Origin: a virus
Virus record (IMG/VR): IMGVR_UViG_3300032246_001342
Span: 1-50,316 of that record
Length of the DNA stretch: 50,316 nucleotides
Reading direction: 5' to 3' (one strand)
Made by a program: the position numbers and the translations under genes. Shown piece after piece: positions 3,911 through 27,437 of this stretch; position 1 is the first letter of the stretch; the number at the start of each line of letters is the position of its first letter. The notes beneath the pieces were generated by a model. The model did no database searches. It saw only the letters and a list, made by a program, of their open reading frames with translations, and was not told the DNA's origin.

Positions 3911-5887
3911 TCACCGGGTCCGGCGGGTTCGTGCCAAACGGTCGAGGATGGCGTCGAGCATCGCCGATTCTCGTCGGGTGAGCCGTGGCGGGTGTTCCCA
4001 TTCGTCGAGCTTCGAGCGGTCAAAAAGGCTCCAAATCCACGCCGCAAACGTGCCTCTTGTTTGCCGTTCGGCGACGTACGATTCGAGAACGTTCATGGAA
4101 TACGACCCGTCCCGGAGGTCGAATTCGAGTTCCACCGTCTCGCCGTGTTCCTTCCACCACGCCCGGCCTTCCGGCGTCGTCATGAGGTCCGAAACACGTT
4201 GGACGTTTGTCAACCCGGCGTCGCCTAGTTTGCGCCGCCAAAACATGCCGGTGAGGTCCCCATCGAAACCAAACCGCGCCCATGTGTAGTATCCGTTGTA
4301 AATTCCATCGTCGCGCGCGGCGAGCGTTTTGATTTTCTTGTAACCGGCCCGGCGGTAACTTTGAACCTGCGAAGCGAAGGCGCGCGCGCCCGTTCCCTTT
4401 CCTTCGTTCGTGATCTTCATGTAATCATGCGACACGATGCCTTGGTCCGGGAAGAACGTCCGATTCGCTCGGACATTGTCAGTTTCCACGAGGATTTGAA
4501 CTCGACGGTCGAATTGTTGGCCCGCAACATGACCGCCGACGTTTGCGTTGTCGCTTGATTGAACAATGCCCGTTGCCCATTCCATGACGTCAAACCCGAC
4601 GGCGTCTTCAACATCAGCCCCCAAATGTTGCGGTGTGTTGTTGCGGATCGGAGCACGGCGCGGCAAATTGTCCACGGTGACCGGGTCCGGCCTTGGCGCG
4701 GGCTTGGGGTCCGGTTCCGTCTTCGGTTTTGGTTGCACCGTTGGCGTCGGCGGCGCGGGAACCGTGACCGAAACCGGGTCGTTGTTTGGGTTCCAAATGG
4801 TGTTCGGTCGGCTTGGGATTTCACCGGAAGCGACGCGCTTCAAATCCCGGATCGGCGTCACGGTAACGTTTGTTCCCCAAACGGGATGGCGGGTTTCTTT
4901 GACACAATCGGCGAGGGTGATTTCACCCGCTTTCCACATGCGGAGCCGTTCGGGTGAACCCATGATTCGGGCTTGGACGTCCGCCGGTTGCGTTTTGAGC
5001 CAATCGTCGCCGAACGGAAGGTCCGGTTTTTCATCATCGACAAAAGGCATCGCCGTACATCGACAAGCCGGGTGACTGTGCATATCCTCGGTCACCGGGT
5101 GTTGGGACATGTGTTTCGCAAGACACGCCGGGCATGTGAACATGTTCAACGACGCAACCCACACCCAACCTTTGACGACGTCGTCATTGTTGCGATAATT
5201 GGCGGTCTGCGCGCCGCGATACATTCGCATCGACTCTGTCCGGGCGATGAGTTCCGCGCGCCGGTACGTGACGCCATCGACGTTGTTTTTGACCTTCGCG
5301 TAAATGGACCGCGCAACATCACGCGGGTTTCGACCGACGGCGACGCCGTTGGTCAATTCGTCGCGCATGGCTCGGTACATCGCGCCTTGGAGTTCGTTCC
5401 GGGCTGTTTGGGCGATTCCGTTCAACAATGCGCCAGCGGGCGCGCGGGCGCGGAGGTTGGCGACCATCATGTCCAAAGCTTCGCGAGGAAGCATTTGGAA
5501 CGACACACCGGGCGAAGCCACCGAAAGGCGCGTCGCCGCATGTTCGCCGCCCATGACCGCCGCCGTTGTTCCAAGCCGGTCGATGGTGTCCCGCGCCGAT
5601 CCGCCAAACCGCTCGATTTCTTCGCCCATTTGGACAAGGAGAGCGGTCCATCGTTGTTGTCGCCACAACCAATTCGGATGGACCGGCTCGCCGTTTTCGA
5701 GAGCGGTTTCGATCTGACGGAGCACCCTTTCGAGTTCACGGAACGCCTTTTTCGTTGCCGTTTCGTATGCCGACGATAACGATTTGAGCGCGTCGTCGTC
5801 GAGGCGCAACAATTCGAGGCGTTGGGTTTCGATGAAATCCCACGGCGTTTTCGGGTTCCGTGTGTTGACCGGCGCGGGCGTTGGCAC
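3911..5887 (-). CDS. MuF-like head morphogenesis protein with C-terminal GNAT-like domain
   Basis: A 658-residue minor capsid protein. Residues 190-285 form the Mu gpF-like domain: YRRAELIARTESMRMYRGAQ, then a candidate metal knuckle with C252, C255, H272, C275 and C277. A proline-rich linker (about 371-403) leads to a C-terminal module with EGKGTGAR (495-502) and YNGYYTWARFGFD (530-542), the spacing and look of the acetyl-CoA loop and final strand of GNAT acyltransferases. MuF proteins sit at the portal vertex and can carry effector domains delivered with DNA. The start is GTG, with GGGAG 9 bases upstream inside the end of the portal gene. MuF call is firm; the GNAT-like assignment is inference from motifs. 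Confidence 0.85.
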   Translation of the reverse strand: MPTPAPVNTRNPKTPWDFIETQRLELLRLDDDALKSLSSAYETATKKAFRELERVLRQIETALENGEPVHPNWLWRQQRWTALLVQMGEEIERFGGSARDTIDRLGTTAAVMGGEHAATRLSVASPGVSFQMLPREALDMMVANLRARAPAGALLNGIAQTARNELQGAMYRAMRDELTNGVAVGRNPRDVARSIYAKVKNNVDGVTYRRAELIARTESMRMYRGAQTANYRNNDDVVKGWVWVASLNMFTCPACLAKHMSQHPVTEDMHSHPACRCTAMPFVDDEKPDLPFGDDWLKTQPADVQARIMGSPERLRMWKAGEITLADCVKETRHPVWGTNVTVTPIRDLKRVASGEIPSRPNTIWNPNNDPVSVTVPAPPTPTVQPKPKTEPDPKPAPRPDPVTVDNLPRRAPIRNNTPQHLGADVEDAVGFDVMEWATGIVQSSDNANVGGHVAGQQFDRRVQILVETDNVRANRTFFPDQGIVSHDYMKITNEGKGTGARAFASQVQSYRRAGYKKIKTLAARDDGIYNGYYTWARFGFDGDLTGMFWRRKLGDAGLTNVQRVSDLMTTPEGRAWWKEHGETVELEFDLRDGSYSMNVLESYVAERQTRGTFAAWIWSLFDRSKLDEWEHPPRLTRRESAMLDAILDRLARTRRTR

Positions 5888-5890
5888 GGA

Positions 5891-7378
5891 TTACGCTCCC
5901 GCGCCGCCGCCGCTTCCGCCTTGGTAGCCTTGCAACGGGTCACCCACACGGGCGAGTGATCGTTGGGTTTCGATTGCGGCGTCCTCTTCGGCTTGGACCT
6001 CTTCGAGCCACGCTTCCATGTCGCGTTCAGGCGCGCCGATCAACCGGTCGAGGCCCGCGACTTGCGATTTGTGGAAATATTTCTCGCGCCAAAGCGACGC
6101 GACCGCCGACATGATCTTCGCCCGGTCTTCCTTGTCCGCCGCTTTGAGCGTGACGGTCGGCGTCAATCGCTCGGCGATTTCGTCGCCCCAATTGAGCGCG
6201 ATAAGTTGCGCCACAACGTCACGGGTGAGCATTTCTTCGATGTGACCGGTCAACCATTCGGCCTTGCGGCTGAGGGTGTCTTGTCCACCTTCGGAATCGG
6301 CCTTCGACCCGTGCTTCGCCTCCATGTTCGCGCGGGCGTTGCCGAGTATCGCGAGGAATAATTCGCGATTGAATGCGTCGATGGTTTCGACGAACGCTTC
6401 GCCGTTGCCGGACGATTGGATCGGTTCGACTTTCGACCCGCCTTTGAGGGCAATCGCCGAACCCGCTTGGAACGACACAAGCGCGGTGAGCATAGCTTGT
6501 TCGCGCGTGATTTTTTTGGTCGATCCGTCGGAATTGTAAAGAGGGCGACCGTTCGAATCTTTAAGTTCGATGAGGTCGTCGTCGCCTTCCGGCGTGTATC
6601 CGATGAGCGACGGCGTCGAAAACTGTTGGAGGTACTTCAACCATCGCGGATACGTTTGGAGTTTGAACCACCAAGCGTTGTAAGCCGACCGAATTTGGGA
6701 TCGACCACGCGGGTCGCCCGCCGTGACTCCAAACGCGAGGATCGCGAATTTTTCCCGTTCGATCACGAGCGACGGATCGACGTACCCTTGCGGTGACGAT
6801 TGACCGGGAAGGCGCGCCATGAAGCCTTGGACGTTTCCCCAATCGTCCACAACAAACGAATAATTCTTCCGCGCAAGCGGCCTGATGCCCTTCAAATGAA
6901 GCCGGAGGCCGTATTTGCGGGTGATCCGCATTTCATAGATTTTCTCGGCAACACACGCGCCATAAACAAAGGCGTTGAGCATTTCGGTCAACACTTCGGT
7001 CAATGGTCGGGCGAGTTTTTTGAGGTTGTACGAAACGAAATCGGTCAATTCACGGGCGAGCGCATAATCCGGGTCTTCCTCGTTTGTCACCGCCGTTTCG
7101 ACACGGACGCCGTTCATGAGGACGATTTCGGTCAATGTTTGAACCGCCGTGAAAATCGCCGGGTCCTTCATCATCCGGTCGTAAACCGCGTCGCCTTGCT
7201 CGCGTTGAAGGTCGTCGGAATATTGCGGAAGCGAAACGATGACTTGCGACAGGCCAATGTCGAGGCCGGACGCGACATATTCCCGCGACGGGTCCATCGA
7301 CGGAATTCGCGAAACCAATTCGTCGCGACGTTGTTCCATCGCGCCCGGCAGGGTCGCTGTGTCGGTCGCTTGTGCCAT
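5891..7378 (-). CDS. Portal protein (Mu gp29-like)
   Basis: A 495-residue protein that should form the dodecameric ring through which DNA enters and leaves. The run TEMLNAFVYGACVAEKIYE, the strand with NYSFVVDDWGNVQGF, and a later RSAYNAWWFKLQTYPRWLKY helix match the DUF935/Mu gp29 portal group. The C-terminus is a glycine-rich tail. The reading frame stays open further upstream, but the ATG at 7378 is preferred because GAGG precedes it (in CGAGGAT) and family similarity begins after it. MuF follows with only 3 bases between. Position after the terminase genes and before MuF supports the call. Confidence 0.88.
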   Translation of the reverse strand: MAQATDTATLPGAMEQRRDELVSRIPSMDPSREYVASGLDIGLSQVIVSLPQYSDDLQREQGDAVYDRMMKDPAIFTAVQTLTEIVLMNGVRVETAVTNEEDPDYALARELTDFVSYNLKKLARPLTEVLTEMLNAFVYGACVAEKIYEMRITRKYGLRLHLKGIRPLARKNYSFVVDDWGNVQGFMARLPGQSSPQGYVDPSLVIEREKFAILAFGVTAGDPRGRSQIRSAYNAWWFKLQTYPRWLKYLQQFSTPSLIGYTPEGDDDLIELKDSNGRPLYNSDGSTKKITREQAMLTALVSFQAGSAIALKGGSKVEPIQSSGNGEAFVETIDAFNRELFLAILGNARANMEAKHGSKADSEGGQDTLSRKAEWLTGHIEEMLTRDVVAQLIALNWGDEIAERLTPTVTLKAADKEDRAKIMSAVASLWREKYFHKSQVAGLDRLIGAPERDMEAWLEEVQAEEDAAIETQRSLARVGDPLQGYQGGSGGGAGA

Positions 7379-7414
7379 ATCCTCGATAATACTCCCGGAG
7401 GTAGAGTTCCGATC

Positions 7415-7696
7415 ATGAAACGAGCGCGCCGGAAAACATCCATGTCGGTCGCAACGGGTCGAAAACGACGCCTCCATTTCATCGTGCTCGGCGAACGGTT
7501 CACCATCGACGTTCACGAGCGGGTCGAAATGATCGACCTCACGACACGGAAGCGGATCGACCCGCAACGTTGGCACATGGGAAACGGCAACGTCCGAACG
7601 CCGCTTGGATGCACTCCACGGTATTTCGAATTGCGCGACGACACGCGCGAGCGGGTCCGCTCATATTCCGGCGTCACAAAAGCCGAACCGCGTTGA
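7415..7696 (+). CDS. Small basic protein of unknown function, opposite to the late operon
   Basis: A 93-residue reading frame on the plus strand between the portal start and the TGT-like gene stop, both on the minus strand. It starts at ATG 7415, with CGGAGG about 12 bases upstream and a GATAAT box at 7385-7390. The protein begins with basic residues (MKRARRKT), then a plausible beta strand (LHFIVLGERFTIDVHE). Without it this would be a 322-base gap. No family recognised. Its orientation suggests a separately expressed accessory (moron-like) gene. Confidence 0.5.
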   Translation: MKRARRKTSMSVATGRKRRLHFIVLGERFTIDVHERVEMIDLTTRKRIDPQRWHMGNGNVRTPLGCTPRYFELRDDTRERVRSYSGVTKAEPR

Positions 7697-7700
7697 TCGC

Positions 7701-8303
7701 TCAAAATTCGAACGGTTGTTGCCAATGGGCATGGTGAACCGCGCGCGCTCCCCACGGTAAATGTTTGAGGAACCGCACGAACCCGGAGCCGTCCACCGAA
7801 TCACAACCGACGTCGCTCGCGTATTGGATGCGCCGCCGACTGTTCACCCTTCCCATGTGAACCCATTTGTCGCGTCGCTTGGCTTCGGCGATGATCGACC
7901 GGGCAACCGATCCCATTTTGAACGCCGTCGTTCCGCCCACAAACACGGCGTCGCATTCGTCCCACGGGATCGCCTCGACCGTTGCGCCGTCTTGGACGAC
8001 AAACGCCGCCGGGAGGCCATGTGAGCGAATCACGGGCAACCACAAGGGCCAAAAGGCGAGCGTCGCGGCATGGTTGCCGACAACGTCCGGCGCGGTGATG
8101 AACCGAACCGGACGACCGGCGAGGCGTTTGAGGTAACGCCGGAACCTTCGTTCGTCGAACGTCCCGAAACAACCATTGTCGGCGGCTTCGTCGAGGCCAC
8201 CAACGTCGGCGGAAAAATGGCGCGGCGTGTGAAGGACGCCAACCGAATATAGGCGGGCGACCTCCACGACGTCGGCGTTGTATCGGGACACGAAAAGGAT
8301 CAT
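7701..8303 (-). CDS. Short TGT/DpdA-like protein (second deazaguanine transferase paralogue)
   Basis: A 200-residue protein that aligns by eye along its length with the larger DpdA at 20299-21120. Shared landmarks in order: DNGCFG (42-47) against DSGAFS; APDVVGNHAAT (71-81) against QLDVVGDRAAT; FVGGTT (121-126) against VGGLGG; HMGRVNS (149-155) against LLGHVSP; and CDSVDGS (167-173) against SCDSTNW. In TGT enzymes the first Asp binds the base and the last is the nucleophile; both are present. The protein is shorter than usual TGTs (about 370 residues) and lacks their zinc site. Its start overlaps the upstream gene (ATGA). It may exchange guanine in DNA or act as partner of the other DpdA; activity is inferred. 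Confidence 0.7.
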   Translation of the reverse strand: MILFVSRYNADVVEVARLYSVGVLHTPRHFSADVGGLDEAADNGCFGTFDERRFRRYLKRLAGRPVRFITAPDVVGNHAATLAFWPLWLPVIRSHGLPAAFVVQDGATVEAIPWDECDAVFVGGTTAFKMGSVARSIIAEAKRRDKWVHMGRVNSRRRIQYASDVGCDSVDGSGFVRFLKHLPWGARAVHHAHWQQPFEF

Positions 8304-8758
8304 TCCGACGCGATTTTCACGAATTCCGCCATGAGCCGTTCTTGTTCCAACATGTTCACGACCCGTTCGACGACTTCGCCTTCCATGACCACGAACACAC
8401 CATTGAGCGGCTTCCCGTCGGCGGTTTTGAGGACGACCGACATTTGCCCGGCTCCGGCTTCGCGCGCCGATTCGATCAACATCCCGACGGCACCTTCAAC
8501 CCGTCCCGGTTGCGATGGCGACATTTCCGAACCGTGTTGTTCAACGAGTTCGAGCAAATCCGCCGCGAGGTGTTCGTTGTCTTTGGCAACCGATGCGGCG
8601 TATGCAACGAGCGCGACGCGGGCGTGTGGGTCGTATGGGCGGAGGACGAACGCCGGGCTTTCAATGACCTCGCCGACCGTCCCGTCGTCGTTGCGTCGAT
8701 GGATGACGTATTTCGAAACCAAACCGCGCGGGTCCGGCGTGTATGTGGGTTTGCTCAT
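8300..8758 (-). CDS. Conserved-looking phage protein of unknown function
   Basis: A 152-residue soluble protein. The N-terminal part (KYVIHRRNDDGTVGEV, then FVLRPYDPHARVAL) resembles a small family often seen in actinophage and related genomes without known function; the rest is helical with an acidic C-terminus. The start overlaps the stop of the upstream gene (ATGA) and its stop overlaps the TGT-like start, so translation is coupled. GGAAC lies about 11 bases upstream. Confidence 0.7.
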   Translation of the reverse strand: MSKPTYTPDPRGLVSKYVIHRRNDDGTVGEVIESPAFVLRPYDPHARVALVAYAASVAKDNEHLAADLLELVEQHGSEMSPSQPGRVEGAVGMLIESAREAGAGQMSVVLKTADGKPLNGVFVVMEGEVVERVVNMLEQERLMAEFVKIASE

Positions 8759-9167: not shown

Positions 9168-9478
9168 CGTCGGATCACCAATTTGATTTCGAATTGGTCA
9201 CGGACCATTCGATTCGCTGATATTGTGCGATTGAACGGGCCTTGCGACAATTCAATCCGGGCTGGAATCAATTCGAACGTCGCTTCCGGTCGAGCACCCG
9301 GTCGAACGTTGCAATTCATCGCCTTCAACACCGGATCGGCGATGAAGACCGTCGCATCGGGTCCGCAAGCGATCATCACGCCTTGGATCGAAGCGAGTTC
9401 GCGATTTGCTTTTCGCAATTGAGCGTTTTCGCGCCGCAACGCGCCGATCATGCGTTTTTGGGTTTTGGTTTGGCTCAT
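9164..9478 (-). CDS. Small coiled-coil protein of unknown function
   Basis: A 104-residue protein. The N-terminus is a short coiled coil (GALRRENAQLRKANREL), the remainder is mixed and ends with a strand (FEIKLVIRR). The ATG at 9478 was chosen because it overlaps the stop of the ASCH gene (ATGA); the longer open frame upstream is out of phase with the operon. Function unknown. Confidence 0.65.
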   Translation of the reverse strand: MSQTKTQKRMIGALRRENAQLRKANRELASIQGVMIACGPDATVFIADPVLKAMNCNVRPGARPEATFELIPARIELSQGPFNRTISANRMVRDQFEIKLVIRR

Positions 9479-10023
9479 GATCGCGCGGCCCTCCGACACA
9501 TGAGCGGGTCGCATCCGGGATGACACACGAGGCCCGACAATTCGCAAAGGTCGATGATGGCTTGCAATCGGACGGCGCGCTCGACCGGTTGTTCCAACGT
9601 CCAAAAACCTTGGTGTCCCATGCATGGGATCGGTTTGAGTCGAACAACGTCGCCGAGTTTCCATGCGAACCGTCCGGGTCCGTGGTTACCGAGCATGTAT
9701 TCTTCCCATGCGCGGCGGTCCGTGATGGTCGGATCGTCGGCGTTTGGCCCATACAACGCCTCGGTCGGAAGACATTCGACGAACCGCCCGACGGCAACGA
9801 GCGCGCCGAGCGGCGGTTGGCTTTCATATCCGAGGTCGATCCCGTGGCCTTTGAGTTCGTCGGCGAATCGCCGTTCGGCACGTTGCCACCGGCGCGACGC
9901 ATGGATCGCGACAAATTGCCCGGCGTACGCCTTCGGGAACCGCCATGATCGCGTCTCGTACGTCTTCGACCCGGCGGCGATGGCGGACGCCCACGGTTGC
10001 CAAAGCGAAATGGCTCTAAGCAT
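9475..10023 (-). CDS. ASCH-domain protein
   Basis: A 182-residue protein opening with MLRAISLWQPWASAIAAGSK, followed by TYETRSWRFP and a VAIHASRRW segment. This is the characteristic start of ASCH domains, small beta-barrels related to PUA that are predicted to bind RNA; some hydrolyse N4-acetylcytidine. In phages they are often scattered single genes and may act on modified nucleosides or host RNA. Start at 10023 lies within the overlap with the upstream gene stop (10016-10018). Substrate cannot be told from sequence. Confidence 0.82.
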   Translation of the reverse strand: MLRAISLWQPWASAIAAGSKTYETRSWRFPKAYAGQFVAIHASRRWQRAERRFADELKGHGIDLGYESQPPLGALVAVGRFVECLPTEALYGPNADDPTITDRRAWEEYMLGNHGPGRFAWKLGDVVRLKPIPCMGHQGFWTLEQPVERAVRLQAIIDLCELSGLVCHPGCDPLMCRRAARS

Positions 10024-10405
10024 CGCCGCCCTTCGGTCGTTGGGACAACCCGCGCCATCCGCTCGCGTCGATTTCCCGCGTGAGTGCGTCGAGCGTTTCC
10101 ATCGCAAGACGACGACGACCGAATTCGTTCCGATCCATCATGCGGGACGCGCCGTTCATCGACCAAACACGGTCGTTGTACACGAACGCATTCACTTCGT
10201 CAATGGTTTTCCCGTCCTTGCCGTCGAGGACGCATACGCGGGCGAACGCGGCGTCGAGGCCGACCGTTGTGTAAACGATCCGCCATTCGAGGCGGACCCA
10301 TGAGAAGCGAGGATGAACCGCCGATCCTTTGACGTCCGTCGGCCCTTCCGGGCTGGCGTAGTTAGGGAGCGGTTCGAGGTTCGTGAGTTTGGTTACTTGC
10401 TCCAT
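10016..10405 (-). CDS. Unknown protein, first gene behind an operator-type promoter
   Basis: A 129-residue protein of unknown function with beta-rich middle (FSWVRLEWRIVYTTVG) and helical C-terminus. The ATG at 10405 stands 9 bases after the TACAAT box of the promoter at 10415-10443, so its mRNA is probably leaderless or nearly so; the first codons read ATGGAGCAAG. It heads the group of small genes that leads through the ASCH protein to the TGT-like protein. Confidence 0.7.
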   Translation of the reverse strand: MEQVTKLTNLEPLPNYASPEGPTDVKGSAVHPRFSWVRLEWRIVYTTVGLDAAFARVCVLDGKDGKTIDEVNAFVYNDRVWSMNGASRMMDRNEFGRRRLAMETLDALTREIDASGWRGLSQRPKGGDA

Positions 10406-10512: not shown

Positions 10513-12366
10513 TCAATCGACCCGCCGATCCCGTGGTCCGCTTTGGTTGGTCACGGCGACGCCGGAACCGTGGAAATTCACCGATCCGACGGGCGACGCC
10601 GATTGTGGCGCGCCATCGCCGCCCGCGACCACATCGAACGTCGTCACTTTCGCTTCGGTCAACATGAGCGATTCGGCAAAGTCCGGCGACGAGACGCCGC
10701 GCGATTTGAGTTCCTTTTTCGATTCGATTCGGACCTTGCCCGTTTCGGTTTCGAAATGTTGGACGACCGACAATTGAGCGATCAATTCGGCGTGGTTCGG
10801 GATGCTGATCATTTCGTCGGTTGGGTGTTGAATGCCCATTTCGACGTATTCGTACGCCTTCTCGAACCGCCGCCGGAGCTTCCACCATAGTTCGGCTTTG
10901 AGGTTCGAAAATTTGTCCTTTGCTTGCTTGCCGTCGTCCCAACGGTCCGTGGTCGGCGGGTTGCCAACGTTGACGCCTTTCACGTTGACACGGATCGGTC
11001 GGTCGGCGGATTGTGTCGCGCCCTTGATGCCCGAACCGTAACCGCCCGCCGAGTCATAAACGAACTCGGTCGCGCCGTGTTGTTCGAGTAGGTTGATGGC
11101 TTTCCATGCCGTCCGGGTCGTGTTGCCTTTGGTCCAATGGTAAACGGCGACCACGAACGGGCCTTGGCGGATCGTGAGGACGTTTTTCGAACCTCCTTCG
11201 TCGGCGACGTCGAGCGCGCCGCGAATCGAACCTCGTTTCGGAATCCGAAGTTCGACCGCCGCCCGAACCCATGCCGCCGGGATCGTGATGCCTTCTTGCG
11301 AGGCCGAATAGTCGATGTCTACTTCTTGGGCAAGGATCACCGGGTCGTGTTCGTATTTCCGGCGCATGGCCTCATACCACGGGTATTCGAGCACCGAACC
11401 TTCGGCATATTCGGGAACCGCCGCGCCGTGGCCCTCGGCGAAGACCGTCCCGTCGGGATTGCGAAGGACCCAACGATTTTTGCGCGGGTCGTCCTTCCAA
11501 CGGAACGTGAACACCGAAAACGCGCCCGAAAATCGCTTCTTGTAAAACACGTTCCCGATCCCGTTCGGCGTCGAGACGTAGATTTTGACGTCGGACGTAA
11601 GCGACAACGCGGCTTCGACCTTTTGAGGCCGCGCGATGAACGCCGCCTCGTCGATGACGTAAATCGACGCGCGACCGCCGCGACCGATGTTGTCGCCCGC
11701 TTCGCCCGTGATCGTGCTCCCGATTTCCGGGTTGATCAATTTCAAATAAGCGTAATGGAGTTTCGGTTTCAACCCGCGCGGGAGCATCCATTCGGGAATC
11801 ATGCGAAGAGCAAGGCGCAATTTTTCGAAAATGCTGTCCGGGTCGCCGGTTTTATCGACGAGGTCCTCTTTGCGTGATCCGACCGCGCCTTTGAATCCGG
11901 GCATGAACAACCAATGGTGAAGGAGGAACATCGCGGTGAGCCACGTCGCGCCAGCGTCGCGCGATTTTTCGACGACGCCGTCCTCTTTGCCTTGTTCACG
12001 GGCCTCAAACCATTTGATGAATTCGCGTTGTTGGCTCCACATCACGAGAGGCACGAACGGTTGCGTGATGCGCGGGTCGTACGTCCAAGCGTACGTGTCG
12101 AACCAATACGTGACGTCGTTCCGGCAACGCTCGCGCTCGTCGTGTTTGAGCGCGTCCGATGCTTCAACCCGTTCGAGGTGTTCGAGGCGTCGGCGCATTT
12201 CCGCCGCGATGGTTTCGTCGCGTGTCCGCTCCAATGCGTCGCGAATGAGTTTGATCGAACCGGACATGCCGAGCGGCGTCGCCATCCGGTCGCGCATCCG
12301 TTGATGGACGGGCGAACGCGATTGGTGTCGCTTGATCCGCTCTTTAGCTTTGGCTTTCAGACTCAT
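10513..12366 (-). CDS. terL: Terminase large subunit
   Basis: A 617-residue packaging motor. The ATPase part has a Walker A-like segment EKSRDAGATW (133-142) and Walker B IYVIDEAAF (235-243, D239/E240). The coupling motif is VSTPNG (264-269). The nuclease part carries the three expected acidic positions: D386 in ALDVADEGG, D438 in FVYDSAGGYG and D562 in SPDFAESL. Length is normal for phage terminases. It cuts concatemeric DNA and pumps it into the prohead through the portal. Start overlaps the small subunit gene by 23 bases. Confidence 0.93.
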   Translation of the reverse strand: MSLKAKAKERIKRHQSRSPVHQRMRDRMATPLGMSGSIKLIRDALERTRDETIAAEMRRRLEHLERVEASDALKHDERERCRNDVTYWFDTYAWTYDPRITQPFVPLVMWSQQREFIKWFEAREQGKEDGVVEKSRDAGATWLTAMFLLHHWLFMPGFKGAVGSRKEDLVDKTGDPDSIFEKLRLALRMIPEWMLPRGLKPKLHYAYLKLINPEIGSTITGEAGDNIGRGGRASIYVIDEAAFIARPQKVEAALSLTSDVKIYVSTPNGIGNVFYKKRFSGAFSVFTFRWKDDPRKNRWVLRNPDGTVFAEGHGAAVPEYAEGSVLEYPWYEAMRRKYEHDPVILAQEVDIDYSASQEGITIPAAWVRAAVELRIPKRGSIRGALDVADEGGSKNVLTIRQGPFVVAVYHWTKGNTTRTAWKAINLLEQHGATEFVYDSAGGYGSGIKGATQSADRPIRVNVKGVNVGNPPTTDRWDDGKQAKDKFSNLKAELWWKLRRRFEKAYEYVEMGIQHPTDEMISIPNHAELIAQLSVVQHFETETGKVRIESKKELKSRGVSSPDFAESLMLTEAKVTTFDVVAGGDGAPQSASPVGSVNFHGSGVAVTNQSGPRDRRVD

Positions 12367-17705: not shown

Positions 17706-17736
17706 GCCGGGCGCGCCAAGACGCCCGGCCTTTTTT
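17706..17736 (+). terminator. Rho-independent terminator of the plus-strand operon
   Basis: GCCGGGCG (17706-17713), 8-base loop, CGCCCGGC (17722-17729), then CTTTTTT. It lies between convergent genes; the minus side lacks a T run, so it acts mainly on the plus strand. Confidence 0.9.
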
Positions 17737-18409
17737 ATGCCCGCACGAGATGGAAGAATTCTTCACGGGCGGCGGGTTCATCACGAAACGCGCCGCGAAG
17801 GTCCGATGTGACCATCACGGAATTTTGCTTCCCGACGCCGCGCATCCGAATACAAAAATGCTCGGCTTCGATCATCACGGCGACGCCACGCGGTTCGAGG
17901 TGCGTTTCGATGGCGTCGGCAATTTGAGCGGTCAACCGCTCTTGGACTTGGAGCCGCCGGGCGAACACTTCGACCACGCGAGCGAGTTTCGAAATGCCGA
18001 CGACGCGGTTCCCGTTTGGGATGTATGCCACATGGACGCGCCCGACGAACGGCAACATGTGATGTTCGCAAAGCGAATAAAGCTCGATGTCTCGAAGGAG
18101 CACGATCCCGTCGTATGCCGTGGCGTCTTCGCCATCCGAATCGAATTGGCGAGCAAGGTGAACCGCCGGGTCGTCGTTGTAACCGGCGAGCAAATCCCGG
18201 TATGCCTTCGCGACCCGCATCGGCGTCTCGTGCGTTCCTGAATGACGGAACAAACCGAGCCGTTCCATAACGAGATCGACGGCGTCGGCGATTCCGCTCG
18301 TGTCGGCGGCGATTTTGGCCTCCGTGCCCTTTTGCGCGGGTTTCGGGTGTTCCGAGTCGTATTCGCTGGGAAACGCCGGGCGGAGGTCCTTGGAGGCGTC
18401 AAAATCCAC
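17735..18409 (-). CDS. folE: GTP cyclohydrolase I (first step to preQ0)
   Basis: A 224-residue enzyme converting GTP to dihydroneopterin triphosphate, the precursor used by QueD. Diagnostic residues: [11 protein letters not shown] (60-70), the zinc ligands C114 and H117 in [13 protein letters not shown]186 in [12 protein letters not shown], and [11 protein letters not shown] (137-147). No ATG exists in the right place; GTG at 18409 has GGGAGGTGA 8 bases upstream and overlaps the QueE stop by 11 bases. The N-terminal 40 residues are a phage-specific extension. Last gene of the deazaguanine operon. Confidence 0.95.
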
Positions 18410-19133
18410 GGCTCGCGTCACCTCCCAATGGAATCCGCCGAAGGTCGGCGTTTGGGTCCATCCGATCAACGCCGTACAATTTATGAAGTTGCCAACCCGC
18501 GCGAACTTCTTGGAGAAGCGGCGGCGATTGAACCGCCTCGCAAATTGCGCGCAACACTTCCGGGTCGTCCCGCTTGGACCATTCGGGATGGAGCCACACA
18601 ACCGAATCGGGACGGCGCGGTCGATTCATCAAACACGCCGCCGAAGCGACAAGCGATTCGCGCGATTCGACTATGAATTTGAATTCGTCGGCGAGGGCGA
18701 TGGATTGGTCGAGCGGATGCGCCGCGAACGGTTTGGGCGACAACGTGATCCAATCCCAATCGCCCGTGATCGGTCGGTGTCCGGCGGTTTCGAGGTGCGT
18801 GGCAAACCCACGCGCGCGAAGCGCGGTCGTCAATTCGCCAAGGTCGTACATGGTTGGCTCGCCGCCAGTCACAACGACAAACGGCAACGGTGATTCAATC
18901 GGGAGGTTTCTCCGAGCGTCGCCGACGTTCAACCAAACCAAATCGGCGATTTGTTCGCCGGTCACGCGCGGGTGTTGCGTTTTGAATTTTGGATGCCATG
19001 TACCCGCCGAATCACACCACGGACATGATTGGTCGCATCCGTGAAGCCGGACAAAATACGCCGCCCGTCCCATGTGGACGCCTTCGCCTTGAAACGCCCG
19101 GAAATGCTCATTCAGGACATATTGCCCGTTCAT
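18399..19133 (-). CDS. queE: 7-carboxy-7-deazaguanine synthase (radical SAM)
   Basis: A 244-residue radical SAM enzyme that contracts carboxytetrahydropterin to CDG. The iron-sulfur motif is C33-x3-C37-x2-C40 ([10 protein letters not shown]), preceded by [12 protein letters not shown], the family hallmark. TGGEP (SAM binding) follows at about residue 97. The ATG at 19133 overlaps the QueD stop (ATGA); the longer upstream frame lacks family features. Confidence 0.95.
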
Positions 19134-19585
19134 GCTCGGAGTTCCACCCACGACGTTTCGGTTTCGACCACACGGAGCCGCACGAGTGACACATGAGCCG
19201 GGAGCCGTGGTTCGATGTCCGCCCACAAAATCGCCGCGATGTTCTCGGTTGTTGGTCGAACACCAAGGACCACGACCCGCGATTCGTTTCGGATTTCATC
19301 CCGAACCGGAATGTTCATGTCGTCCCGGTGAAGGTATGCCATCGTTTCGTGCTCGACAATGAACGCATGGTCGAACCGGTCGATGACGGGTTGGACGCAT
19401 GTTTTCAATCGGGTGAGGTCCATCACCATCCCGGCTTCTTGCCCATTGGCGACGAGCGCGCCAGCGGCGACCGAAACTTCGACCTTGTACGAATGCCCGT
19501 GAACATGTCCACAAAGGCCGTCGTACCCTTCGAGATAATGAGCGGCCTCGAAAGTGAACCGCTTGGTGATTTCAAGATTTGGCAT
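19130..19585 (-). CDS. queD: 6-carboxytetrahydropterin synthase
   Basis: A 151-residue protein of the PTPS/QueD family. FEAAH (12-16) supplies the first zinc histidine, and CGHVHGHSY (25-33) the other two plus the catalytic Cys25. A DHAF segment and a PTTENIA helix lie further on, as expected. It turns dihydroneopterin triphosphate into CPH4, the QueE substrate. Starts 15 bases after the QueC stop, the only real gap inside this operon. Confidence 0.94.
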   Translation of the reverse strand: MPNLEITKRFTFEAAHYLEGYDGLCGHVHGHSYKVEVSVAAGALVANGQEAGMVMDLTRLKTCVQPVIDRFDHAFIVEHETMAYLHRDDMNIPVRDEIRNESRVVVLGVRPTTENIAAILWADIEPRLPAHVSLVRLRVVETETSWVELRA

Positions 19586-19600
19586 GGTTGATTGTTAGGT

Positions 19601-20302
19601 TTACGAACGAATGGTCGCGAGGACGGTGTCGAGGTCGGGCGCGGTTGGCGCATATTCCGTTGGGTCGTCGATTTCGGCGTCTCGAAAAGCTTCACGCCGT
19701 TCGATGCACGTCCCACACGCGCCACAATGAACGTCGCCGCCGAGGTAACAAGACCATGTCATTTCAAGCGGCGCGCCGTTCCATGCGCCCATTTTGACGA
19801 TCTGCGCTTTCGTTAGGGAAACGAACGGTCGTTCGAGGTTGATCGGTCGGTCGTCCGCGCGCCGCAACGCTTGGTCGAGTGCGATGGAAAAATCTTCCCG
19901 ACAATCGGGATAAATGGCTCGGTCGCCCGAATGCGCGCCGTAAATGACCGAACCGCCGCCGTGGGCGAGGCAGATCGCCGCCGCCGCCGAAATCATGAGC
20001 ATGTTCCGGTTTGGGACGATGGTCGCTTTCATGGACGGATCGGCGTAATGCCCGAACGGAACATCGACGTCCGGGTCGGTTTGCGATGATCCCGGAAGGT
20101 GCGACGCCATTCCCGACATGTCGATCACGTCATGAGGAACGCCAGCGATCCGGGCGATTTCGCTCGCGGCTTCAAGTTCCCGGCGACCGTGTCGTTGCCC
20201 GTAATTGATCGACACGGCGCGGAGCGGTCGTTCACGCTCCAAAAGCCGATAAAGTAGGACGGTCGAATCGAGTCCGCCCGAAAAAATACAAACGTTGATC
20301 AT
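19601..20302 (-). CDS. queC: 7-cyano-7-deazaguanine (preQ0) synthase
   Basis: A 233-residue ATP-dependent enzyme converting CDG to preQ0. The PP-loop SGGLDS (8-13) and the C-terminal zinc site C185, C193, C196, C199 (in CYLGGDVHCGACGTC) are complete. No amidotransferase (Gat) domain is fused to it, so there is no sign of the archaeosine-type G+ product. The ATG at 20302 overlaps the DpdA stop (ATGA). Confidence 0.95.
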   Translation of the reverse strand: MINVCIFSGGLDSTVLLYRLLERERPLRAVSINYGQRHGRRELEAASEIARIAGVPHDVIDMSGMASHLPGSSQTDPDVDVPFGHYADPSMKATIVPNRNMLMISAAAAICLAHGGGSVIYGAHSGDRAIYPDCREDFSIALDQALRRADDRPINLERPFVSLTKAQIVKMGAWNGAPLEMTWSCYLGGDVHCGACGTCIERREAFRDAEIDDPTEYAPTAPDLDTVLATIRS

Positions 20303-21120
20303 CGTCGTTTTGTTCCTTCCAATTGCCACGCCTGTTCGACCCAATCAAGGTCGTTCATCGAACCACACGCGGCGTAAACGTGCGAACCGAATGTCCGTTC
20401 GGCGTCGGTCGAAAATCGAATAATGGAACGCGCGCCGAGGACGCCCATGTCGCGCCGCCAAAAATCTTCGGTCCGCATTTTGGCGCGGGTGACGCCGTAC
20501 GATTCGAGCGTTTTCCATGTGTCGGCGTTGATTTTGCCCGCCTTCCACATGCCTTTGTGAATGCCGTTTCGACGTCCACGCCCGGCGTACAACATCACTT
20601 GAAGGCCGCGTGTCCCAAACATCCAATTCGTCGAATCGCACGAATACGGCTTGGTCGCCGCGATGGTCGGCGGCGACACATGTCCGAGTAAATGCGCTTT
20701 TCTCCCGTGGACCTTGCCCATGAACCATTTGCAAAATCCGGCCTTGTCTTGTGATCCGCCGAGGCCACCAACCGCGACAACGTCGGCGAGGCCGAACAAA
20801 TCGTCGATGTCGGTTTCTGGCATTCCGCGTTGGAACACCGCAATCGGTTTGAGGCCCGAATCGACCATCGCGCGAAGGTTGTCGATGGTTGCGGCGCGGT
20901 CGCCGACCACGTCCAATTGGAAATAACCGGTCGGCTCGAATGGCAACGCGCGAAGGAACGCGATGTATTCGTCGAGGCGGATCGGTTTCCCAGCGTTCCA
21001 CGCGCTGAACGCGCCGGAGTCGATGTAAACGTTCGCGCCGCGCTCGCGCATGTCGGCGAGTTTCGCGACGATGGTCGCCGAGGCGTACGGGAAGGCGACG
21101 AGGACGTTTACGCCGATCAT
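20299..21120 (-). CDS. dpdA: DpdA-like DNA guanine transglycosylase
   Basis: A 273-residue TIM-barrel protein related to tRNA-guanine transglycosylase. IDSGAFSAW (33-41) corresponds to the base-binding DSGGFQ of TGT, VGGLGG (117-122) to the phosphate/substrate glycine loop, and D162 in SCDSTNW to the catalytic nucleophile. The TGT zinc site and tRNA-binding C-terminus are missing, as in phage DpdA proteins that act on DNA. Directly upstream of queC-D-E-folE with ATGA overlaps, it should exchange guanine in phage DNA for preQ0 or a relative, masking DNA from host restriction. A shorter paralogue is at 7701-8303. Confidence 0.87.
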   Translation of the reverse strand: MIGVNVLVAFPYASATIVAKLADMRERGANVYIDSGAFSAWNAGKPIRLDEYIAFLRALPFEPTGYFQLDVVGDRAATIDNLRAMVDSGLKPIAVFQRGMPETDIDDLFGLADVVAVGGLGGSQDKAGFCKWFMGKVHGRKAHLLGHVSPPTIAATKPYSCDSTNWMFGTRGLQVMLYAGRGRRNGIHKGMWKAGKINADTWKTLESYGVTRAKMRTEDFWRRDMGVLGARSIIRFSTDAERTFGSHVYAACGSMNDLDWVEQAWQLEGTKRR

Positions 21121-21689
21121 TCGATGGTCACTCCGTCGAACGATTCCACGGCGGCGGCGATGGCGGTTTTCACGTCCCCAATGATGGACCTCGGAGCATG
21201 GACGACAACCCGTTCGATTGCATCCGAACCGTTTTCGCGTTTTTGGTGTCCACGGTTCACGACGTCTTCGTCCCATTCACCGGCAAGCGACGCGAGGATT
21301 TCATCGGCTTCGGTCGATCCGTACCCGGTACCGGTGAGGCCGAGTTCCGTTTGAACCAATTCCGCGAGGATTGCGCCGAGCGATTGTTCGTCGTAATCGG
21401 CAAGGTCCGACGTTTTGTTGTCGGCGAGGATGATCCGTTTGGCCTCTTCGTCGGACACATCGACCCAAAGGACCGGGATTTCGTCCGCTTGCTCTTGGAT
21501 CGCCGCCAAATACCGATGGTTGCCCGCGAGAATGTAGTTGGTCGATTGTTGAACAACAACCGCGCCGTAAAACCCGTTTGTTTTGACTGATTCGGCGATG
21601 ACGGCAACATTTCCGCGCCGTGGGTTGAGCGGGTGCGTGTGGAGCGTCGCCACTGGCACCATTTCAAATGCTTGGTTAATCACGCGCAT
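21117..21689 (-). CDS. ParB-like nuclease-domain protein, first clear gene of the deazaguanine operon
   Basis: A 190-residue protein. VATLHTHPLNPRRG (about 12-25) and YILAGNHRYLAAIQ (about 52-65, the GxHR signature) define a ParB N-terminal domain; VLWVDVSDEEAKRIILADNK follows as usual. Such domains bind or hydrolyse CTP and can bind or nick DNA. ParB-fold proteins (DpdB, DndB) also occur in bacterial DNA-modification islands, so a role in choosing or marking sites for DpdA is possible but inferred. Confidence 0.83.
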   Translation of the reverse strand: MRVINQAFEMVPVATLHTHPLNPRRGNVAVIAESVKTNGFYGAVVVQQSTNYILAGNHRYLAAIQEQADEIPVLWVDVSDEEAKRIILADNKTSDLADYDEQSLGAILAELVQTELGLTGTGYGSTEADEILASLAGEWDEDVVNRGHQKRENGSDAIERVVVHAPRSIIGDVKTAIAAAVESFDGVTIE

Positions 21690-25667: not shown

Positions 25668-27437
25668 CTACCGGCGACCATTTCGCGAAGCATTTGTCCG
25701 CTGGCTGATCAATGCGTGAGCTTCGCCCGCCGTCAATGACGGGTGTCGCGAAAGGTCGATCCCCATTCGGCGAAGGACGGCGATTTGTTTCTCGCTCGCC
25801 GTCGCTTGTTTCCAACGAGCGTCGCGAACGGCGAACATCCCCATGTTAGGCCATGAAGACACGAGGACCCGATCCGAATCCCGGAACGCTTGGGTGAGGT
25901 TGTTGGCGACCCGCAATTCAGGCCGAAGCGCATCGACACGGTTTTCGCCGTTCCGGTAATGCGTCACCATTCGCAAAACGTGATGACCGAGCACGTCTTT
26001 TTTGAGGTACGCCGTCCGGCGTCCTTTCCCGTCGTCGGATGGCCCGCAATCGAGCACGAATTCGCCGGGACTCATTTCGAGCCAACCAAACCGCGACGAC
26101 CGTTTGACCTCTTCCGGTACGACTGTTTGCGCCAACAAATCGACTTCGGAAATGAGACGCAAAATGTCTTGGAAATTACGCGGCTTGCGCGTTGCGATGG
26201 CACCGGCGCGCGCGCCCAAATCGTCCATCGCGTCGGCGGTCTCGGTGAGCGTTTTCCCTTGAAGGTCGAGCCGAGGCGGAAGCCCGAGCAACGCGGGAAC
26301 CGATGCGAGTTCGTGTTTTGCCGTGATGTCCACGACGTCGATCACGAAACAATCGGGTTTGCCCGATTCGGCGATTGCCGAGCGGCGAACATCCGGTCCC
26401 GCGTTTTCGAGGTGTTCGATGATGCCCGGAAGGACGCGCGTCCCACGTCCGACCATTTGGCAATAAAGGCCCCATGATTGCGTGGGTCGGAGCATCAACA
26501 CACACCCGACACTCGGTTCGTCGAAACCTTCGGTCAACACTTCCACGTTGCAAAGGACCGTCGTTGTCCCACGCCGGAACCGCTCCATGACGGCGCGCCG
26601 CGCGTCTTTGTCCATTGTTCCATCGACATGCTCGGATCGGATTCCGGCGGCGTTGAACATCGACGCCACATGTTCGGCGTGTTCAACACCGGTACAAAAC
26701 ACGATGGTTTTCCGGCCTTGCGCGATTTCGCGCCACGCGCTGACCGCCAATTCGTTTCGCTCTTCCGTGTCCACGGCTTGTTGCAATTCGGATTGGCTGA
26801 ATTCGCCACCTCGCGTTCGGATTCCCGAAAGGTCGAGCGACGTTTCGACACGGAACCCGCGAATGTCGCAAAGGTAACCATCCATGATGGCGCGACGGAG
26901 TTCGTACCGGTAAACCTCTTCCTCGAACACGGCGTCATGGTCGCCATAGAGCGGCTTGTTGTCGAGCCGTTTGGGTGTTGCCGTGACTCCGACCGTAAAG
27001 CAACGCCCGGAATATGCGCCGAGTGCCTCCATGACAATTTGGTAACTCTCGGCGATGGCGTGATGTGCTTCGTCGATGATCAACAAATCGGCGTTCGCGA
27101 TGGAATCAAGGCGCGCCGATCCTTTGCGCCCGACCGTTTGCACGGATGCGACGACCACGTCGTCCATTGGACCGGATCGGCGCGACGCCGCTTCGATCCC
27201 GACGTTGAGGCCATCGACGACCCGTTCGATTTTGTCTTTGGCTTGGTCGAGCAATTCTTCACGGTGAGCAAGGACGACGGCGCGACCAACGCCGCGCGCA
27301 AATTGTTCTTCGATGATCTTCGCGAACGTGACCGTCTTCCCGGTCCCGGTCGGCATGGTGAGCAACACACGGTCGTTCACACCGCGCGCGTTGTCCACGG
27401 CGTCCACGGCGTCGCGTTGGTATTGGCGAATTCTCAT
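25668..27437 (-). CDS. SF2 DEAH helicase
   Basis: A 589-residue helicase. Motif I MPTGTGKT (28-35), motif II DEAH (122-125), motif III VTATPKR (151-157) and motif VI QMVGRGTR (327-334) are all present, in the arrangement of UvsW/RAD25-like DNA helicases. It probably remodels forks or recombination intermediates together with the Sak4-like and RuvC-like proteins upstream. About 220 residues after motif VI form an uncharacterised C-terminal extension that ends with a helical segment. Confidence 0.9.
   Translation of the reverse strand: MRIRQYQRDAVDAVDNARGVNDRVLLTMPTGTGKTVTFAKIIEEQFARGVGRAVVLAHREELLDQAKDKIERVVDGLNVGIEAASRRSGPMDDVVVASVQTVGRKGSARLDSIANADLLIIDEAHHAIAESYQIVMEALGAYSGRCFTVGVTATPKRLDNKPLYGDHDAVFEEEVYRYELRRAIMDGYLCDIRGFRVETSLDLSGIRTRGGEFSQSELQQAVDTEERNELAVSAWREIAQGRKTIVFCTGVEHAEHVASMFNAAGIRSEHVDGTMDKDARRAVMERFRRGTTTVLCNVEVLTEGFDEPSVGCVLMLRPTQSWGLYCQMVGRGTRVLPGIIEHLENAGPDVRRSAIAESGKPDCFVIDVVDITAKHELASVPALLGLPPRLDLQGKTLTETADAMDDLGARAGAIATRKPRNFQDILRLISEVDLLAQTVVPEEVKRSSRFGWLEMSPGEFVLDCGPSDDGKGRRTAYLKKDVLGHHVLRMVTHYRNGENRVDALRPELRVANNLTQAFRDSDRVLVSSWPNMGMFAVRDARWKQATASEKQIAVLRRMGIDLSRHPSLTAGEAHALISQRTNASRNGRR

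Follow-up and report, generated by a model that had tools for sequence, protein, structure and literature searches.

A short DpdA-related phage protein linked to 7-deazaguanine supply genes: a candidate minimal base-exchange enzyme

Results

The short gene and the preQ0 operon

The window, that is, the whole 50,316-nucleotide stretch of viral DNA analysed here, carries a real gene on the minus strand at positions 7701-8303, where the initial annotation had placed one, with its ATG at 8303, its stop at 7701 and a product of 200 amino acids. The gene directly upstream, of unknown function (8300-8758, minus strand), overlaps the start of the short gene with its own stop by four bases (ATGA). Because the short gene sits between the large terminase gene (10513-12366) and a Mu-type portal gene (5891-7576), its earlier assignment to a "late operon" is fair by position. 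A 210-residue protein matching phrog_3193 (function unknown) is encoded at 9475-10107, between the terminase and the short gene.

The preQ0 operon with whose DpdA the short protein had been compared is genuine as well. It occupies positions 17735-21689 and comprises, all on the minus strand, FolE (GTP cyclohydrolase I; 17735-18601), QueE (18399-19226), QueD (19130-19585), QueC (19601-20344), a long DpdA of 325 residues (20299-21276) and, upstream of the latter, a ParB-like gene (21117-21689).

The short protein is homologous to phage DpdA

The initial annotation had noticed five sequence landmarks common to the short protein and the long DpdA. These are present and their order is identical, whereas the spacing, said to be the same, is similar but not identical: from the first Asp on, the gaps measure 31, 50, 26 and 19 residues in the short protein and 36, 48, 25 and 19 in the long one. 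When a profile was made from the short family with no DpdA included, its sole non-family match (E 7e-4) among all open reading frames of the loci fetched by then was the window long DpdA. Profile-profile comparison using hhalign matched the short family to nine long DpdAs at 91% (E 1e-6) and to 90 long DpdAs at 93% (E 2.5e-7), while the TIM-barrel controls ribulose-phosphate epimerase and TrpA (tryptophan synthase alpha) gave 1.4% and 0.1%. At the level of sequence profiles a chance resemblance between the short protein and long DpdA is excluded, since the family profile retrieves the long DpdA and hhalign aligns the two families so firmly.

The only PHROGs profile matched by the short protein was phrog_15826 (E 3.1e-52, residues 2-193), to which PHROGs gives no function and which all 53 aligned members match. 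It did not match the "queuine tRNA-ribosyltransferase" profiles phrog_887 and phrog_7068, the former of which is matched by the window long DpdA. Scans against Pfam, NCBIfam and PADLOC gave nothing useful, a sequence-profile search of the PDB returned chance matches only, for the short family and likewise for the long DpdA, and a single-sequence scan for relatives of the long DpdA found none. Direct comparison of the short family with TGT by hhalign failed (0.2%, E 0.33), and the short protein has no match to PF01702, the Pfam family of TGT. We do not claim direct sequence homology between the short protein and TGT; because the direct profile comparison fails, the link to TGT rests on DpdA, on the fold and on the motifs.

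A bare eight-stranded barrel is predicted

AlphaFold2, supplied with 53 relatives, predicted the short protein as an eight-stranded minimal TIM barrel (pLDDT 92.1, pTM 0.89). The model ends after barrel helix 8 and lacks both a C-terminal extension and the zinc-binding subdomain of TGT; no nucleic-acid-binding domain or extension is apparent in its 200 residues. Together with the hhalign match and its negative controls, this fold supports the earlier proposal of a second DpdA-related protein beside the long DpdA and the preQ0 pathway; neither outcome that the initial annotation had named as refuting it, a fold other than a TIM barrel or the lack of a profile match, was observed.

In fold searches of the PDB the best matches were TIM barrels generally, and TGT (4gh3) tied with others near the top (Z 15.8, 194 residues, 2.9 Å); Foldseek ranks pyruvate kinase (Z 16.4), epimerase and TrpA as high. 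Among predicted models of viral proteins, 28 matches had E<=0.001; seven of these bear the name queuine tRNA-ribosyltransferase or TGT, and no other enzyme name recurs. The top viral match was an unnamed marine virus protein of 499 residues that contains the same domain (BFVD A0A0F7L9Z1, TM 0.85), the remainder of which could name a partner. The model of the window long DpdA consists of the barrel, a hairpin (226-240) and C-terminal helices, and its Foldseek search gave no TGT in the top 50, perhaps due to its disordered N-terminus and extra helices.

Conserved residues point to D171 as the second catalytic Asp

In E. coli TGT, residues D89, D143, Q187, G213/G214, G245 and D264 are catalytic or bind the base, and the second Asp of its GIDMFDCV motif is the nucleophile. 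Eight residues of the short protein, D42, D73, Q104, G123, G124, H149, G151 and D171, are invariant in all 53 aligned members, as are K129, R152 and R158, and D42 is Asp in 86 of the 89 members of a larger set. All codons given here are on the minus strand. By motif, D42 (codon 8178-8180) in ADNGCFG is the counterpart of TGT D89 and of DSGAFS in DpdA; D73 (8085-8087) in APDVVG corresponds to D143; and Q104 (7992-7994) in QDG corresponds to Q187 (IIQGS), with which it is paired in the weak short-TGT hhalign alignment too. The G123-G124 pair (7932-7937) in VGG is the counterpart of the GG of TGT and DpdA, G213/G214 in TGT, and H149-M150-G151 (7851-7859) in HMGRVNS lie at the end of strand beta-7 (147-150), with G151 matching TGT G245.

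The initial annotation had both catalytic Asp residues present, naming D42 and D168. The first of these stands, while D168 (7800-7802) is variable, being Asp in only 37 of 53 members and otherwise His, Asn, Gln, Ala or Thr. We propose D171 (7791-7793) as the likelier second catalytic Asp, because this residue never varies. It lies at the end of strand beta-8 (169-171), and by motif it corresponds to TGT D264, with identical D-x-x-D spacing in the GCDSVDGT of the short protein and the GIDMFDCV of TGT. Alignment of the beta-8 strands (169-171 in the short protein, 212-215 in the long DpdA) pairs D171 with the invariant D214 of long DpdA; an ungapped count from the conserved His pairs D214 with D168 instead. 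Judged by conservation, a D168 mutation would probably hit the wrong residue.

The family mostly travels with a putative importer or with preQ0 genes

Relatives of the short protein occur in actinophages (ReqiPine5, the Zilizebeth group, Sonali and Aoka), in some Queuovirinae, in Synechococcus and Erythrobacter phages, in more than 80 viral contigs and in nine actinobacterial genome contigs. A divergent member in Erythrobacter phage ZS04 (L095, 7896-8537) is named "DarB-like antirestriction protein", a name that nothing here supports.

We assessed gene linkage in 50 records carrying the short gene, a sample that includes near relatives so that the counts are not independent. Vut_1 (PF02592), to which the preQ0 transporter YhhQ belongs, was present in 33 of the 50; in every case it shares the strand of the short gene and lies no more than 841 bp from it, as compared with about 3.7 expected at random positions. 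This is a family-level match, and the transporter role here is putative. Mycobacterium phage Zilizebeth, for one, has the short gene and Vut_1 but no annotated preQ0 genes. An E. coli YhhQ query gives weak matches to many of these transporters. Fourteen records contain QueC, two of them together with Vut_1, so that one or the other accompanies the short gene in 45 of 50. One of the five remaining records (L064) has QueE directly downstream of the short gene, and the other four (L045, L085, L086 and L087) have no recognised partner. Neither a short gene nor a Vut_1 above the cut-off occurred in 50 control records chosen by the Zilizebeth and Aoka terminases. In two Nocardia genomes (L193, L194), tgt adjoins a Vut_1 gene, an arrangement resembling the phage cassette.

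Several records (L013, L016/L017, L021, L028, L038, L047 and L054) hold an operon of the order SHORT-QueC-QueE-QueD or QueC-QueE-QueD-SHORT, and L049 has the same type with QueD and QueE exchanged; the short gene is the only DpdA-like gene inside these operons. One of them (L021, 40-3963) combines three short DpdA genes and two QueC genes in a single operon. The QueC matches of L016 and L017 (G005 7374-7943 and G006 26263-26832) read through one TGA, which may reflect a frameshift, an error or recoding.

Mapped on an 89-member tree, the operon label requires 11 changes, and supported branches force at least six of these. The window protein falls in a group with R29Z, Ssp-JY42 and L001, the last of which has a transporter partner. 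Such repeated partner switching is as expected if importer and pathway feed the same enzyme, and one enzyme fed by either base source is the simplest reading.

Short and long forms mostly occur apart

The initial annotation had raised the possibility of a two-part transglycosylase or of two enzymes with different targets or timing. A long-DpdA profile matched three of the 50 short-gene records (the window, Sonali and contig G024), and a fourth, weak match in G045 falls by coordinates inside the short gene of that record. Long DpdA was thus undetected in 47 of 50 records, some of which may be fragments, and none of the 50 contained a TGT. Conversely, 80 long-DpdA loci showed no short gene within flanks of about 5 kb. 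Both forms are present in the window phage, Arthrobacter phage Sonali, some Queuovirinae (R29Z and phiG7) and contig G024. Since the great majority of short-gene records have no detectable long DpdA and the short gene is the sole DpdA-like gene in the QueC/QueE/QueD operons, the short form generally needs no long form, and the two-part proposal is not supported. Two enzymes differing in target or timing are possible for the few genomes that hold both.

In phiG7 the short gene (L093, 8824-9470) is annotated as two overlapping open reading frames, possibly a frameshifted copy, and this phage also has a Vut_1-like gene at 3985-4554 in addition to its long DpdA. Elsewhere, a single 7-deazaguanine gene cluster holds two long DpdA genes that are adjacent or close together (L110, L111, L116, L121, L126, L142, L144 and L176), and such loci are more promising than the short/long pair in a search for an enzyme with two parts or two targets. 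The long DpdA of L110-L113 is accompanied by Vut_1, QueD, QueE and FolE with no QueC found nearby, an arrangement that would be consistent with insertion of the substrate of QueC or with preQ0 being imported.

Discussion

We think it likely that the short protein is a compact and self-sufficient enzyme of the DpdA/TGT superfamily that exchanges guanine for a 7-deazaguanine base, with DNA as the presumed acceptor. The predicted bare eight-stranded barrel appears to retain the base-binding and catalytic positions D42, D73, Q104, G123/G124, G151 and D171, and the short enzyme would carry out the exchange alone. By correspondence with TGT, D171 would attack, D42 may serve as general acid/base, and D73, Q104 and the GG pair would hold the base. 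This base would be preQ0 in the window phage, because this phage makes preQ0; in phages whose short gene is paired with a transporter, it would be imported. Kinship with DpdA and the place of the gene in preQ0 operons suggest phage DNA as the acceptor. In the window phage the short protein, encoded between terminase and portal, would add a second exchange enzyme to the long DpdA; that a long DpdA is already there counts against this reading.

The same chemistry might be directed at another acceptor, a free nucleotide or nucleoside or tRNA rather than DNA, which we regard as rather unlikely. The 200-residue model shows no nucleic-acid-binding extension, and the invariant K129, R152 and R158 could bind phosphate. 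Moreover, since tgt itself has a Vut_1 neighbour in the two Nocardia genomes, pairing with an importer alone does not say that the acceptor is DNA. However, the closest profile relatives of the family are phage DpdAs, some of which insert preQ0 into DNA (PMC6884629), and the short gene fills the DpdA slot of preQ0 operons. It is barely conceivable that the protein is an unrelated TIM-barrel enzyme with DpdA-like motifs by chance: other TIM barrels do equal TGT in PDB fold searches, but the match to the DpdA profile stands against negative TIM-barrel controls, and 7-deazaguanine genes are linked to the short gene in nine-tenths of the records (45 of 50).

By analogy with eukaryotic TGT, the short protein could instead be one subunit of a two-part enzyme with long DpdA, as the coexistence of both forms in five genomes might suggest. 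This appears very unlikely given how rarely the two are found together in either set of loci, and the catalytic set is intact in the short form, which sets it apart from a non-catalytic partner. A similarly small probability attaches to a non-enzymatic or regulatory barrel that binds 7-deazaguanine and senses or sequesters it. Linkage to base supply genes speaks for such a barrel, but both catalytic-type Asp residues are invariant along with the base-binding residues, and the short gene replaces DpdA in operons that otherwise lack one.

Among known systems, the short family is close to the DpdAs, or 7-deazaguanine DNA inserting enzymes, of phages such as Rosebush, CAjan and 9g (PMC6884629), with which it shares profile homology, motif order, the barrel and operons with QueC, QueD and QueE. 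It differs from them in size (about 200 residues as compared with about 240-360), in lacking the hairpin and C-terminal helices, and in having Gln at a position that is His in most long DpdAs (29 of 40); it usually accompanies Vut_1 and rarely the ParB-like gene frequently situated ahead of long DpdA. DpdA2 of Vibrio phage nt-1, by its description, is likewise a divergent DpdA subfamily without the conserved His (PMC6884629). With bacterial TGT (PF01702) the short protein has in common the TIM barrel, the catalytic and base-binding positions by motif and, in Nocardia, the Vut_1 neighbour, whereas it lacks the PF01702 match, direct profile detection and the zinc subdomain. Salvage by bacterial YhhQ/VUT together with TGT also places an importer beside a base-exchange enzyme; in contrast, the system described here is phage-borne and a miniature DpdA-related enzyme takes the place of TGT.

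The name "DpdA-like tRNA-guanine transglycosylase" is already known for small actinophage members (Zilizebeth gp54, Sonali gp81 and Aoka gp40), which together with phrog_15826 form the same family at about 40-45% identity; we saw no structural difference from these proteins, and the linkage to importer or operon is absent from the records that we read. The open-access papers searched gave no account of the importer pairing or of the small form as an operon-resident enzyme, and with the subscription literature mostly outside our reading priority is not certain. Hutinet et al. (2019) left open the source of the base for DpdA phages without preQ0 genes (PMC6884629). In the same study no 7-deazaguanine was found in Orion, which has DpdA only and was grown on M. 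smegmatis, YhhQ was noted in some phages without correlation to any phage group, and the possibility was raised that singleton phage DpdAs have diverged (PMC6884629).

It is plausible, although we put it forward tentatively, that a two-gene cassette of a YhhQ-type importer and a one-domain transglycosylase of 200 residues enables phages to label their DNA with a base taken up from outside the cell, and to do so even where the host, as in the case of Mycobacterium, has no queuosine pathway. In other phages the same enzyme may stand in the preQ0 operon in place of long DpdA, while the window phage may use it as a supplement to long DpdA. The tight link of the short family to YhhQ-like importers makes the salvage idea directly testable. 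The protein would define a very small scaffold for base-exchange chemistry and would point to a function for a family, present in more than 80 viral contigs, to which none has been assigned.
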